Of a stretch of 64,000 nucleotides of DNA, positions 13,949 through 29,491 are shown piece after piece. The notes below the pieces were generated by a model. The model was not told the DNA's origin, ran no database searches, and worked only from the letters and a program-made list of their open reading frames with translations. The DNA comes from Salinibacterium sp. NG253 (GTDB lineage: Bacteria; Actinomycetota; Actinomycetes; Actinomycetales; Microbacteriaceae). Position 1 is the first letter of the stretch, and every line of letters starts with the position of its first letter. A program made the position numbers and the translations under genes. The DNA lies in the NCBI RefSeq assembly GCF_015864945.1, contig NZ_JADYWF010000003.1, positions 1-64,000 of the forward strand. Reading direction: 5' to 3'.

Positions 13949-14120
13949 TGGGCCTGAGAGTTTCCGCACGCTTGTGGCGTTGCGTTGCCCCGTCGGCGAG
14001 TCGGACAGGGCCGACTACTTTTCAGAGTTGCCTATCCACTGCGGTACTGGGGCCTGAGAGATTCCCGGAGAGGGTTTGCTCCTACGGCGCCAACCATCGA
14101 TCGGAAGGACTCTCCCGCAG
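13949..14120 (-). ncRNA. tandem glycine riboswitch upstream of sdaA
   Basis: Two consecutive aptamers on the minus strand. Aptamer 1 (about 14120-14049) has GGGAGAG, GCGCCGTAGGAGCAAA and ATCTCTCAGGCC. Aptamer 2 (about 14048-13949) has GCCGACGGGGCAACGC and AAACTCTCAGGCCC. These are the conserved cores of the glycine riboswitch family, and the linker between them is short. The gap 13885-14261 contains nothing else except the sdaA promoter; a TATGCT hexamer (14150-14155, minus strand) is a possible -10. Genetic decision probably happens near the sdaA ribosome site, since no terminator hairpin with a T-run was seen. Confidence 0.9.
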
Positions 14121-14261
14121 CGGAATGACGGCTGTTCACTTGTGCCATCAGCATACACTTGAGCCTGCCTCGCAGACCCGTCAATCTCGCGCCGGACTGG
14201 TGCTCAGTCGAGCGAGCGTTCCGCCCCTCAGCGCTGCGAAACGCGCGCTCGTAAAGACCGC

Positions 14262-25432: not shown

Positions 25433-25548
25433 CCCTGACAATGTTAATCGCTTTGTTGTGCGTCTGCTGGCCGTGAGGCGGCGATCTCCCTTATTTTCCT
25501 GACTTTTCTGCAGATTGTTTTCCTCTAGTGACAATTAGGCTCGTCACT

Positions 25549-26985
25549 ATGGATTTCTACGAGACCACGCCCATGCACGACTTGACCTATTCCGACGTGT
25601 TTTTGGTGCCCAGCCACTCCTCGGTAGGCAGCCGGATGGCCGTCTCGCTGGCGCCCGGTGACGGAACGCCCGCGACCATTCCGCTCGTGGCATCCAACAT
25701 GAACTCGGTGACCGGCCCTCGCCTGGCCGCCAGCCTGGCGCGACGCGGAGGACTCGGCGTGCTCCCGCAAGATCTCAGCGACGACGAGATGGCTGAGGCT
25801 CTCGCGTGGGTTCGAAACCAACCCGTCGATCTCGACTCCGCCGTCTTTTTGAGCCCGAACGACACAGTAGAGAAAGCGCTGCTGCTGGTGCCTCCGCTGC
25901 CCGGCCACGGGGTTGTGCTCCAGAACGACGGCGAACTCGTCGGTGTGGTGGATGCCGAACAGCTGGCCACGGCAATGCCCGGTGCCGCTCTGGGCGACAT
26001 CGCCCGCGCCGACGCCCACGCGATTGACCGCACGGAGTTCGGCAGCGCTCGCGAACTCTTCGACCTTCTCGTCGAGCGAGGCCTCGGCTTCGCCCCGGTC
26101 GTTGAGGGCACTACGGTCGCAGGAACGACCAGTAAGACCAGCGCGCTCCGTTCCACCCTCTACACTCCAGCCCTCGACGGCGACGACAAACTCGCGGTCG
26201 CCGCCGCCCTCGGAATCAACGGTGATGTTGGTGCCCGCGCCAGTGCTCTCGTCGCCGCCGGCGCGTGCGCTCTTGTTCTCGACACCGCGCACGGACACCA
26301 AGAAGGCATGGTGCGGGCGATCGAAACGGTCGCCGCCCTTGACCTCGGCGTACCGCTGGTTGCAGGCAACGTGGTGACGAGCGCCGCTGTGCGTGACCTT
26401 GTCGGAGCAGGAGCAACCATCATCAAGGTCGGGGTTGGCCCCGGCGCCATGTGCACCACGCGCATGATGACCGCGGTCGGTCGTCCGCAGTTCTCCGCAG
26501 TGCTTGAGACGGCGGCAACCGCGCGCGAACTTGGCGCCCACGTGTGGGCTGACGGCGGGGTGCGCTACCCGCGCGACGTTGCGCTCGCGCTCGCCGCTGG
26601 GGCGACATCCGTCATGATCGGTTCGTGGTTTGCCGGCACGATCGAAGCCCCGGGCGAACTGCGTCACGACGATGCCGGTGCGCTCTACAAAACCAGCTGG
26701 GGGATGGCGTCAACCAAGGCAGTGCGGGCCCGTTTTGGTGGCCTTGATGCCTACGATCTCGCTCGCAAGGAACTCTTCGCCGAGGGAATTTCCGGCTCCA
26801 AGATTTATCTTGACCCGGCTCGACCGTCTATCGACGACCTCGTGGACATGATCACCTCGGGGGTGCGCAGCTCGTGCACCTATGCCGGCGCGGCCACTCT
26901 GAGGGAGTTCCGCGAGCGGGCGTTGGTGGGAATCCAGTCCGCTGCCGGGTATGAAGAGGGAAAGGCGCTGCCCGTGAGCTGGTAG
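25549..26985 (+). CDS. guaB1: GuaB1 family IMP dehydrogenase-related protein (probable GMP reductase)
   Basis: 478 residues. IMPDH/GMPR fold: HDLTYSDVFLVPS, LVASNMNSVTG, a CBS-like insert near 85-200, catalytic loop IKVGVGPGAMCTTRMMT with its Cys, and VWADGGVRYPRDVALALAAGA. The actinobacterial GuaB1 group has been shown in mycobacteria to reduce GMP to IMP rather than oxidise IMP, so this is probably a purine-salvage enzyme. ATG at 25549 fits the family start and lies 7 nt after TAGGCT (25536-25541), suggesting a leaderless mRNA; the upstream in-frame start at 25528 has no ribosome site. Confidence 0.88.
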   Translation: MDFYETTPMHDLTYSDVFLVPSHSSVGSRMAVSLAPGDGTPATIPLVASNMNSVTGPRLAASLARRGGLGVLPQDLSDDEMAEALAWVRNQPVDLDSAVFLSPNDTVEKALLLVPPLPGHGVVLQNDGELVGVVDAEQLATAMPGAALGDIARADAHAIDRTEFGSARELFDLLVERGLGFAPVVEGTTVAGTTSKTSALRSTLYTPALDGDDKLAVAAALGINGDVGARASALVAAGACALVLDTAHGHQEGMVRAIETVAALDLGVPLVAGNVVTSAAVRDLVGAGATIIKVGVGPGAMCTTRMMTAVGRPQFSAVLETAATARELGAHVWADGGVRYPRDVALALAAGATSVMIGSWFAGTIEAPGELRHDDAGALYKTSWGMASTKAVRARFGGLDAYDLARKELFAEGISGSKIYLDPARPSIDDLVDMITSGVRSSCTYAGAATLREFRERALVGIQSAAGYEEGKALPVSW

Positions 26986-27014
26986 TAGATCGGTGGTTAC
27001 TGAGGAATCTGTCC

Positions 27015-27020
27015 TATAAT
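27015..27020 (+). promoter_or_regulatory. -10 element for the CNNM operon
   Basis: Consensus TATAAT, 10 nt before the leader ORF ATG at 27031. With a start site around 27028 the transcript would begin about 3 nt before that ATG. No good -35 is visible. Confidence 0.6.
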
Positions 27021-27030
27021 CGAGCCCATA

Positions 27031-27138
27031 ATGGACGACCCTCCCTCTAGTTGTCGCCGGGGCCCTTCTCCGTGCGACCATCACCTGTTTCTCGCCCGTT
27101 CTCTACCTACCTCCGCGGCTGGAGGTGAACTGTCATGA
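27031..27138 (+). CDS. proline-rich leader peptide upstream of the CNNM/CorC genes
   Basis: A 35-codon ORF beginning Met-Asp-Asp-Pro-Pro-Ser-Ser-Cys-Arg-Arg and continuing GPSPCDHHLF, with the tail AAGGELS. Its TGA overlaps the ATG of the CNNM gene at 27135. A perfect TATAAT ends 10 nt before its ATG, so it would be translated from the very 5' end of the mRNA without a Shine-Dalgarno. Codons 27-32 run through a hairpin that holds the CNNM ribosome site. An acidic/proline start resembles MgtL, whose nascent chain destabilises ribosomes at low magnesium. The comparison is by analogy; no homologue is known to me. Confidence 0.6.
   Translation: MDDPPSSCRRGPSPCDHHLFLARSLPTSAAGGELS
27109..27126 (+). 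promoter_or_regulatory. hairpin sequestering the CNNM ribosome-binding site
   Basis: ACCTCC (27109-27114), 6-nt loop, GGAGGT (27121-27126). The 3' arm is the Shine-Dalgarno of the CNNM gene, 8 nt before its ATG. Translation of the overlapping leader ORF would open the stem. Confidence 0.7.
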
Positions 27139-28457
27139 ATGAATGGCTTCTCCTCGCCGCTGGCCTCGTGCTGACTGTTGGCACTGGCTTCTTCGTCGCC
27201 TCTGAATTTGCTCTCGTCAACCTCGATCGTTCCGATCTTGAGTCACGACAAGAGCGTGGCGAAAAGCGACTTTCCCCCATAATCGCGGCGCTCAAGCACA
27301 CCTCGACTCATCTTTCGAGCGCGCAACTGGGCATCACCCTCACGACTCTTCTCGCGGGTTACACCCTCGAACCTGCATTCAGTATTTGGCTATCGATTCC
27401 GCTCGGCGAAGTGCTGCCTGACGGCGTCGTGGTCGTGCTCGCTAGCGTGCTGGCCATCACGTTCGCCACGCTGCTCTCCATGATCGTGGGCGAGCTGGTT
27501 CCCAAGAACTTCGCTCTCGCGTTGCCACGCGCCACCGCAAAATTTGTTGTGCCGTTCCAAATTCTCTTCACGACGGTGTTCAAGCCGGCTGTGAGCCTGC
27601 TCAACAACACCGCAAATGCGATCCTCCGCTCTGTGGGAATCGAACCGAAAGAAGAACTTTCGGGTGCACGCACGGCAGAGGAACTAACATCGCTCGTTCG
27701 CCGTTCGGCTAGCCAAGGAAGCCTCGAAGCGGACACGGCTACCCTGCTCGCGCGCACCCTCGCCTTTGCCGATCACACGGCGCAAGACGTGATGACGCCC
27801 AGGCCGCGGGTCGACAGCATCGACCGCACCGACAGTGCGCAAGACGTCATTGATCTCGCTAAGCGCACCGGCTTCTCTCGCTTCCCCGTAATCGACGACA
27901 GCATCGACGATGTTGTGGGCTTTGTGCACATCAAGCAGGCTGTTGCGGTGCCGCACAAGAAGCGTGCCGACGTGCCCGTTTCTGCACTGCAAACCGAAGC
28001 GCTTCGGGTGCCAGAAACGATGCGACTGGATGCCCTCCTCGCCGAACTTCGCGGACGTGGCTACCAAATGGCTGTTGTCGTTGACGAATACGGCGGAACT
28101 GCCGGAGTCGCCACGCTCGAAGACCTCGTGGAAGAACTCGTCGGCGAAGTTTCCGACGAGCACGACCGTTCGAAAGCAGATGTGGTGCGCTCGCGTGACT
28201 GGTTCACCTTCCCCGCAATTCTGCGCCCCGATGAGCTTCTCGAGCGCACCGGCGTTGAGGTTCCCGAAGAGGGACCGTACGAGACGGTCGCGGGTTGGCT
28301 CATGAGCGAACTCGGCCGAGTGCCACGCACCGGCGACACCATTACCGCCGCTGGCGGAGTGTTCCGCATTGAACGACTGGAAGGTCGACGCATCGACCGC
28401 GTGAGGTTTACCCCCGATCCCATTGACACCACGAGCGATGCTGAGGTGGTGCGCTAA
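27135..28457 (+). CDS. CNNM/CorC family membrane protein with CBS and CorC_HlyC domains
   Basis: 440 residues. Order: CNNM (DUF21) transmembrane domain, about 1-190, with four hydrophobic segments and ASEFALVNLDRSDLE; paired CBS domains, about 205-330, starting QDVMTPRPRVDSID and including VVDEYGGTAGVATLEDLVEELVG; C-terminal CorC_HlyC domain to 430. Family members (CNNM, CorC, MpfA) move or sense magnesium, often as Na-coupled Mg efflux; the older label haemolysin is misleading. It overlaps the leader ORF upstream and the second CNNM gene downstream. Confidence 0.9.
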   Translation: MNEWLLLAAGLVLTVGTGFFVASEFALVNLDRSDLESRQERGEKRLSPIIAALKHTSTHLSSAQLGITLTTLLAGYTLEPAFSIWLSIPLGEVLPDGVVVVLASVLAITFATLLSMIVGELVPKNFALALPRATAKFVVPFQILFTTVFKPAVSLLNNTANAILRSVGIEPKEELSGARTAEELTSLVRRSASQGSLEADTATLLARTLAFADHTAQDVMTPRPRVDSIDRTDSAQDVIDLAKRTGFSRFPVIDDSIDDVVGFVHIKQAVAVPHKKRADVPVSALQTEALRVPETMRLDALLAELRGRGYQMAVVVDEYGGTAGVATLEDLVEELVGEVSDEHDRSKADVVRSRDWFTFPAILRPDELLERTGVEVPEEGPYETVAGWLMSELGRVPRTGDTITAAGGVFRIERLEGRRIDRVRFTPDPIDTTSDAEVVR

Positions 28458-29491
28458 TGGACGTCTGGGGAATCATCTGGCTTTTCGTTCTACTGATCAT
28501 CAACGCCTTCTTCGTGGGGGCAGAGTTTGCCGTCATTTCGGCACGACGCTCACAGATTGAGCCGCTTGCGGCATCCGGTTCACGCTCGGCAAAGACCGCG
28601 CTATGGGCGATGGAACACGCGACGCTCATGCTCGCGGCGTGCCAATTGGGCATCACAGTGTGTTCGCTGCTGATTCTGAATGTGTCAGAACCGGCCATTC
28701 ACCACTTGCTTGAGGTGCCGTTGGCGCTGACTGGCCTCAGCGAAGAACTGATCAGCACGATCGCGTTTATTCTTGCGCTGATCATTGTGTCGTTCTTGCA
28801 CGTTGTGCTCGGCGAAATGGTGCCGAAGAACCTGTCGTTCTCGATTCCCGATCGTGCGGTGCTGATTTTGGCGCCGCCGCTCGTGTTCATCGCGACAGTC
28901 TTCCGCCCGATCATCGTCGCCCTCAACGCGACAGCGAATGGCATCCTGCGACTCTTCAATGTCGTGCCTAAGAACGAAGCGAACAGTGTCTTCACGCTCG
29001 ACGAAGTGGCCACGATTGTGGCGCAGTCGAAGCGAGAAGGTGTGCTGATGGATGCCGGTGGCACCCTCACCGGCGCGTTCGAGTTCACCTCCAAAAAGGT
29101 TCGCGATGTCGCTATCCCGATGTCGGGGCTCGTCACGCTGCCCGAGGATGCCACCCCTGCCGATCTCGAAAAGGCGGTCGCTCAGCGCGGATTCTCGCGC
29201 TACATCCTGCTCAATGACGCGGGAGAACCCACGGGTTATCTGCATTTGAAGGACGTCATCGACCTCGACGAGAGCGAATTCTCGGAGCCGGTGCCGCCCA
29301 AGCGGATTCGTCAGCTCATCTCGATGTACTGCGAGACCGACCTTGAAGATGCGCTGGCGACAATGCGTCGTTCAGGAGTGCACGTTGCTCGCAGCTTCGA
29401 CGCGACCGGTGAAACCACCGGTGTGCTGTTCCTCGAAGACATCATCGAAGTGCTCGTGGGCGAAGTTCAAGACGCCACCCGGCGTCGCTAA
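28457..29491 (+). CDS. second CNNM/CorC family membrane protein, without CorC_HlyC domain
   Basis: 344 residues. CNNM transmembrane domain (about 1-185, with FFVGAEFAVISARRSQIE and VLGEMVPKNLSFS) followed by a CBS pair (about 205-340, with VRDVAIPMSGLVTLPED and ETTGVLFLEDIIEVLVGEV). It ends there, so the C-terminal CorC_HlyC domain seen in its upstream paralogue is missing. Its ATG shares one base with the stop of that gene (TAATG), implying coupled translation and possibly a heteromeric transporter. Confidence 0.88.
   Translation: MDVWGIIWLFVLLIINAFFVGAEFAVISARRSQIEPLAASGSRSAKTALWAMEHATLMLAACQLGITVCSLLILNVSEPAIHHLLEVPLALTGLSEELISTIAFILALIIVSFLHVVLGEMVPKNLSFSIPDRAVLILAPPLVFIATVFRPIIVALNATANGILRLFNVVPKNEANSVFTLDEVATIVAQSKREGVLMDAGGTLTGAFEFTSKKVRDVAIPMSGLVTLPEDATPADLEKAVAQRGFSRYILLNDAGEPTGYLHLKDVIDLDESEFSEPVPPKRIRQLISMYCETDLEDALATMRRSGVHVARSFDATGETTGVLFLEDIIEVLVGEVQDATRRR

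Follow-up and report, generated by a model that had tools for sequence, protein, structure and literature searches.

Conserved Asp-Asp-Pro-Pro leader peptides ahead of CNNM genes in Microbacteriaceae: a candidate magnesium gauge for predicted exporters

The window, that is, the whole stretch of 64,000 nucleotides from Salinibacterium sp. NG253 that was analysed, carried on its plus strand an IMPDH/GMP-reductase family gene, a gap containing a TATAAT hexamer, a small open reading frame, the genes CNNM-1 and CNNM-2 and an NAD(P)H-hydrate dehydratase gene, in this order. The first of these genes (25528..26985, assigned by domain match), which we take to be of the GuaB1 type, was located upstream of the candidate switch and outside it. 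The hexamer at 27015-27020 was assigned as the -10 element of the leader's own promoter. The frame behind it (27031..27138) encoded a leader peptide of 35 codons, MDDPPSSCRRGPSPCDHHLFLARSLPTSAAGGELS, whose conserved core Met-Asp-Asp-Pro-Pro (27031..27045) was predicted to be a ribosome-destabilising start. The leader stop TGA (27136-27138) and the start of CNNM-1 at 27135 shared the sequence ATGA (27135..27138), a potential coupling site, and a hairpin of ACCTCC (27109-27114) with GGAGGT (27121-27126) covered the CNNM Shine-Dalgarno sequence (27109..27126). The hexamer, the frame with its acidic and proline-containing start, the stop/start overlap and the two complementary hexanucleotides had all been pointed out in a sequence-only reading of this DNA, and all were found in place; the distance from hexamer to ATG, described there as within 10 nt, was a gap of exactly 10 nt.

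CNNM-1 (27135..28457) was composed, according to domain matches, of a CNNM transmembrane domain, a CBS pair and a CorC_HlyC domain, and CNNM-2 (28457..29491) of CNNM and CBS domains. The Pfam matches of CNNM-1 were PF01595 (1.4e-36), PF00571 (4.2e-12) and PF03471 (1.1e-17). The ATG of CNNM-2 and the stop of CNNM-1 had one base in common (TAATG), hence CNNM-2 is probably coupled in turn. When compared with solved structures, CNNM-1 matched CorC (4hg0, 1.8e-36) and 7m1u (7.6e-34, residues 15-337); the matched entries 7m1t and 7m1u are titled 'Hemolysin, contains CBS domains' and are presumably archaeal CNNM/CorB proteins. By homology, the pair are probable Mg2+ exporters. The CNNM of Salinibacterium sp. 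SWN167 was 100% identical to that of the window. Elsewhere in the window, a glycine riboswitch (RF00504) was detected on the minus strand at 14032-14127 with 58.1 bits against a gathering score of 32.

The upstream regions of CNNM-1 orthologues were collected from 27 genomes of the genus, the window's own included, and from 120 genomes of the family, 118 of which had the gene. Further regions were taken from family members in the class and order samples, from 35 of 49 named loci, a set with Salinibacterium, Glaciihabitans, Frigoribacterium and Leifsonia among its genera, and from some extra stretches. Of 186 loci, 2 lacked any upstream sequence, and 22 were set aside because their 120 nt before the gene were duplicates, which left 162 distinct loci, two of them paralogues. 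An ATG or GTG frame was counted as a leader if it was preceded at 5-11 nt by TANNNT and if its stop lay between -12 and +35 relative to the start of CNNM. Such a leader was present at 151 of the 162 loci, against an expectation of 5.75 after dinucleotide shuffling of these upstream sequences, and 116 of the 151 leaders started with MDDPP. Among the outcomes that would speak against it, the sequence-only reading had named that close relatives do not conserve the frame or its Asp-Pro start; the opposite was observed. The leaders varied from 11 to 68 residues in length; thus, the stretch between the start and the end of the peptide is for the most part free to vary. The standard form was absent at 11 loci (L060, L122, L134, L139, L158, L165, L168, L169, L173, L175 and L248). 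MDDPP was present and TANNNT absent at L060, L139 was the fusion in genome G063 described below, and at several others CNNM itself was read close behind a -10 element.

Codon changes were counted on a tree built with FastTree from 74 CNNM proteins, 72 of which had leaders. In codons 2-5, 50 changes were found along with 10 amino-acid changes, so at least 40 of the 50 were synonymous, compared with 31 of 163 in codons 7-10, where 132 changes altered the amino acid. Because the changes in codons 2-5 were mostly synonymous, it was concluded that selection acts on the first amino acids of the leader. Across the 151 leaders, positions 1 and 2 of codons 2-5 were nearly fixed and position 3 was freer; the third position of codon 5 was T in 57, C in 51, G in 33 and A in 10 leaders. 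The 35 leaders without MDDPP included MDEPP, MDHPP, MGDPP, MNDPP, MEPPS, MDDDHPP and MTDDHSHS. Residues 2-10 contained Asp or Glu in all 35 and Pro in 33 of these. Residues 2-4 were acidic at least once in 33 of the 35, as compared with 4 and 0 when the same three codons were read in the other two frames.

The synonymous choice itself was biased: CCT accounted for 73% of the Pro codons at leader codon 4 against 5% in CNNM, which indicates that some of the constraint is not purely at the peptide level. Over leader codons 6-20, AGA made up 16% of Arg codons (1% in CNNM), AGT 21% of Ser codons (4%) and CAT 57% (13%). Taken over codons 4-20 of the 151 leaders, the rare codons CCT, TCT, AGT, AGA, CAT and AAA were strongly enriched, and they may serve slower decoding or an open 5' end. 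Out-of-frame TAG/TAA triplets (CTCTAGT, CATAGA, CATAAA) were rejected as a conserved element, since CACAGA and other variants broke the pattern, and were taken as rare-codon use.

The sequence ATGGAYGAYCCNCC occurred once in the whole 2.97-Mb genome of the strain, at the window leader. The 120 family genomes gave 117 matches, and 88 of them were found at a CNNM start, that is, at 87 leaders (one, L319, at a contig edge) and at the G063 fusion. The other 29 matches were close to the background, as the reversed pattern gave 25 in the same genomes. None of the 29 had TANNNT 5-11 nt upstream, and a sharing of the leader by other genes was rejected on this ground. Fifteen second CNNM paralogues, with 57-63% identity to the query, were listed, and 10 of them likewise had the motif at the place of the leader. 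In the own genome, the third CNNM (G000:C1:495100) had no MDDPP start within 150 nt upstream.

The -10 element was spaced 9-10 nt from the leader start at 134 of the 151 loci, and its commonest hexamer was TATACT. No conserved -35 element was seen at the family leaders, and no promoter-like hexamer pair was found at the window leader in a simple sigma-70 scan; therefore, the promoter was called from the conserved -10 element by itself. At the usual distances between a -10 element and the transcription start, transcription is expected to begin at about 27026-27028, just before the ATG at 27031, thus the leader mRNA is probably leaderless. The first 18 nt of the predicted mRNA were more open than shuffles at 141 of the 151 loci (0.61 vs 0.45 unpaired; six shuffles for each leader).

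Relative to the CNNM start, the end of the leader stop was placed at +1 (14 leaders), +4 (41), +8 (78) or +13 (6), so that 139 of the 151 stops overlapped or adjoined the next start as in a coupled gene pair. A Shine-Dalgarno-like sequence preceded CNNM at 63 of the 151 loci only, hence the stop/start overlap was regarded as the constant element and termination-reinitiation as the likelier output. The CNNM start region was modestly less open than shuffles (0.33 vs 0.40, at 112 of 151 loci). The sequence-only reading had proposed that the ACCTCC/GGAGGT hairpin acts as the switch by hiding the CNNM ribosome-binding site. By reading, the hairpin was present at 6 of the 26 same-genus loci with a leader (L001, L004-L008), and its fold in the window was ordinary when compared with shuffles (local z = -0.25; whole leader z = -1.28). 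Together with the scarcity of Shine-Dalgarno-like sequences, these results did not support it as a general device. The hairpin is at most one local way of making CNNM leader-dependent, accessory to the coupling in close relatives.

A natural joining of the leader to its target was found in G063, where the frame MDDPPSAELLLL..., beginning 10 nt after TAGAAT, was continuous with CNNM over 475 residues, and MDDPP formed the N-terminus of CNNM itself. G426 (77% complete), the only other member of that genus among the genomes, had a separate leader of 12 residues, read as MDDPPSDRPWTA, whose stop overlapped the CNNM start (TGATG). The Asp-Asp-Pro-Pro start was kept when leader and CNNM were joined. 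Since a loss of ribosomes in the fusion can only mean less CNNM, this one case suggests that destabilisation would switch CNNM off.

Based on these comparisons, we consider it moderately probable that the leader is a translated magnesium gauge of the CNNM exporter pair, by which the exporters would be turned off at low Mg2+. Transcription would begin only a few nucleotides ahead of the leader ATG, and ribosomes would load on the leaderless 5' end, where they would translate a pair of acidic residues and a pair of prolines at positions 2-5, as in the Glu-Pro-Asp-Pro of E. coli MgtL. When Mg2+ is sufficient, the ribosome would survive to the leader stop and reinitiate on the overlapping CNNM-1 start and, after CNNM-1, on the overlapping CNNM-2 start, and the exporters would be made. 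At low Mg2+, many ribosomes would fall off in the first codons, and the exporters would not be made because the lost ribosomes never reach the coupling site. The core of the sequence-only reading, an Asp/Pro leader that leaves CNNM off at low Mg2+, thus gains support from the conservation of the leader and of its MDDPP start, the synonymous drift, the fusion and the confinement of promoter-proximal motif copies to CNNM. The part in which a hairpin hides the ribosome-binding site did not stand as a general device.

The family leaders had the features of the MgtL type, namely an acidic and proline-containing start of a short frame before a Mg2+ transporter gene. As in MgtL (E. coli, Salmonella mgtA), positions 2-5 of a short leader on the mRNA of a Mg2+ transporter consist of acidic residues and prolines, two of each. 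According to the available part of PMC11282234, at low Mg2+ the ribosome is lost from MgtL at EPDP (residues 2-5), a loss that is countered by EttA. The same part states that di-acidic residues alone are insufficient for destabilisation, which counts against the magnesium-gauge reading. MgtL differs in that it serves an importer and acts through Rho-dependent transcription termination, with low Mg2+ turning the gene on, whereas low Mg2+ is expected to turn CNNM off because the stop of the leader overlaps with the start of the exporter gene. The window leader also belongs to a different phylum and probably to a leaderless mRNA, and no sequence homology to MgtL is claimed. In Salmonella MgtQ, encoded between mgtC and mgtB, acidic residues 2 and 5 similarly lower leader translation and set that of a Mg2+ transporter, but the abortion there frees a sequestered ribosome-binding site and turns an importer on (PMC8092293, in its available text).

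The available text of PMC12421838 describes Salmonella corC and mgpA as induced by high Mg2+ and probably acting in Mg2+ efflux, calls the mechanisms of their regulation unclear and cites the CorC N-terminus, after Chadani et al., as ribosome-destabilising. CorC (YbeX) of E. coli and Salmonella therefore resembles the present case as a CorC-domain protein with a destabilising start and a predicted higher production at high Mg2+ (PMC12421838, same text). It differs in that the motif is the N-terminus of the soluble CorC, whereas in Microbacteriaceae, apart from the G063 fusion, the peptide that carries the motif is separate from its target. YoaL, the overlapping leader of mgpA (yoaE), likewise promotes translation of a protein of high-Mg2+ tolerance, although its target is a TerC/CorC protein (PMC12421838, same text). 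In mycobacteria, the uPPE2-PPE2 pair is another actinobacterial upstream frame coupled over AUGA, mainly by termination-reinitiation, with a B12 riboswitch rather than a nascent peptide as the regulator (PMC11260477, in the part available).

The start of YbeX in E. coli K-12 is MSDDNSHSSD, and two leaders were close to it by eye, MNDDNSHSPKPDP of G133 (L161, GTG-started) and MTDDHSHSPEPEP of G071 (L159). Their starts MNDDNSHS and MTDDHSHS thus stood beside the MSDDNSHS of E. coli CorC/YbeX (L291:2907-3785). YbeX shares CBS and CorC domains with the leader's target. The likeness of the starts may be convergent or due to chance.

The titles and abstract openings that were searched, with most subscription papers outside their range, described no such leader, actinobacteria included, and contained MDDPP as a word only in connection with food peptides. 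A 50-genome intergenic survey gave 8 uORF candidates, ilvB and fthC being among those described in the accessible part of PMC11109978, and the accessible part of a uORF review (PMC11550727) does not mention magnesium. For the wider proposal, we see roughly even prospects that in Microbacteriaceae, and in related forms within the class, Asp-Asp-Pro-Pro on a leaderless mRNA serves as the Mg2+ sensor of an exporter switch, a sign-inverted translational counterpart of MgtL that would be independent of the enterobacterial CorC N-terminus. The leader is a concrete, sequence-defined candidate switch for CNNM/CorC exporters in a large actinobacterial family. If true, a sensor built on the ribosome's own need for Mg2+ would be in use well beyond the enterobacteria, with the opposite sign and in the service of an exporter. 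About 150 natural variants and one natural fusion would be available for dissecting which nascent N-termini shed ribosomes.

Asp-Pro-Pro is a context of ribosome pausing as well. The leader could thus sense another translational stress, be it pausing at Pro-Pro by way of EF-P or prolyl-tRNA or the energy state by way of EttA, with the same coupling output and with Mg2+ not as the main signal. The enrichment of rare codons in the leader, CCT, AGA and AGT among them, is in line with this, as is the action of EttA on acidic N-terminal motifs, that of MgtL included (PMC11282234, available part). Several variants, however, were acidic without Pro-Pro (MTDDHSHS, MDDSSPAH, MDKAGSDH), and the promoter-proximal motif copies were found only at CNNM, a transporter of Mg2+ type; we regard this explanation as unlikely.

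It was also considered that the leader is a constitutive leaderless mini-cistron, which delivers ribosomes to CNNM by coupling at a fixed level and senses nothing. The unusually open 5' end would suit such a function, and outside the family a coupled small frame was found even where the acidic start was missing. On the other hand, there is no evident reason for a pure delivery frame to keep Asp-Asp-Pro-Pro, which would be expected to shed ribosomes, through mostly synonymous drift, and this start was retained even when fused onto CNNM. Such a constitutive role therefore seems rather improbable.

A reversed sign, by which ribosome drop-off would free an RNA structure or stop Rho so that low Mg2+ raises CNNM, is known from the mgtL-mgtA and mgtQ-mgtB leaders of enterobacterial Mg2+ importers, as described in the source texts available. 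For the present leaders it is very doubtful: the shortest, of 11 residues, could hardly accommodate alternative structures, no intrinsic terminator was found in 26900-27300 of the window, so that the window leader lacks a terminator-like site, and drop-off in the G063 fusion can only lower CNNM. A DNA or RNA binding site directly behind the promoter, in place of a coding sequence, is a scarcely credible explanation of the conserved block: although the nucleotides ATGGACGACCCTCC looked conserved within the genus, the family varied at third codon positions, mostly synonymously on the tree, on which ground a DNA motif was rejected, and no Rfam family reached the gathering score in the window leader, where two weak matches were at chance level.

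A riboswitch or another known RNA was rejected for the leader on the same Rfam result. The M-box (RF00380) had no match in the window at the gathering score, and the leader region gave none either when E values up to 10 were admitted; it was present in 3 of 30 relatives and in 0 copies in the own genome. Two same-genus genomes, G017 and G018 (L292, L293), had an M-box magnesium riboswitch that is absent from the window's genome.

The comparison outside the family counted in part against the magnesium-gauge reading. Among 56 loci from outside Microbacteriaceae, for which no shuffle control was run, 43 had a coupled frame with a -10 element or a Shine-Dalgarno-like sequence, and 13 had none. Two loci of the latter group, L184 and L185 of a 9.2-Mb genome, were read as carrying frames (MDGSSCST..., MGEPPRTR...) that terminate at the start of CNNM. 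Acidic and proline-containing starts were observed in some members of families f2, f3 and f5 and in a Plantactinospora record (MDDPPSHMPWP, MDDHPSSAA, MTTVPDQLPDDPDDEP, MDDLPSHSPWP). In f45 and f46, the starts were mostly MSSPPGPR- or MPSRRCRP-like, with little acid. Coupling thus extends further than the acidic start does, and this start is patchy outside Microbacteriaceae.

Coupled leaderless frames with Ser/Pro/Arg starts were seen in f46 (L203, L205, L206, L209, L211) and f45 (L198, L200, L204, L210), for example MPSRRCRPLAGLPQSR and MSSPPGPRGG, and L210 had MDSSEGP. In f19, a leader of 23-25 residues led by a Shine-Dalgarno sequence was present at 11 of 12 loci (L072-L081, L086), with acidic starts such as MKDSDDAGCSSGRPTR. 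It represents a second leader type ahead of CNNM, and in about half of these leaders the body D/E-D/E-A-G-C-S-S-G-R-P-T was conserved.
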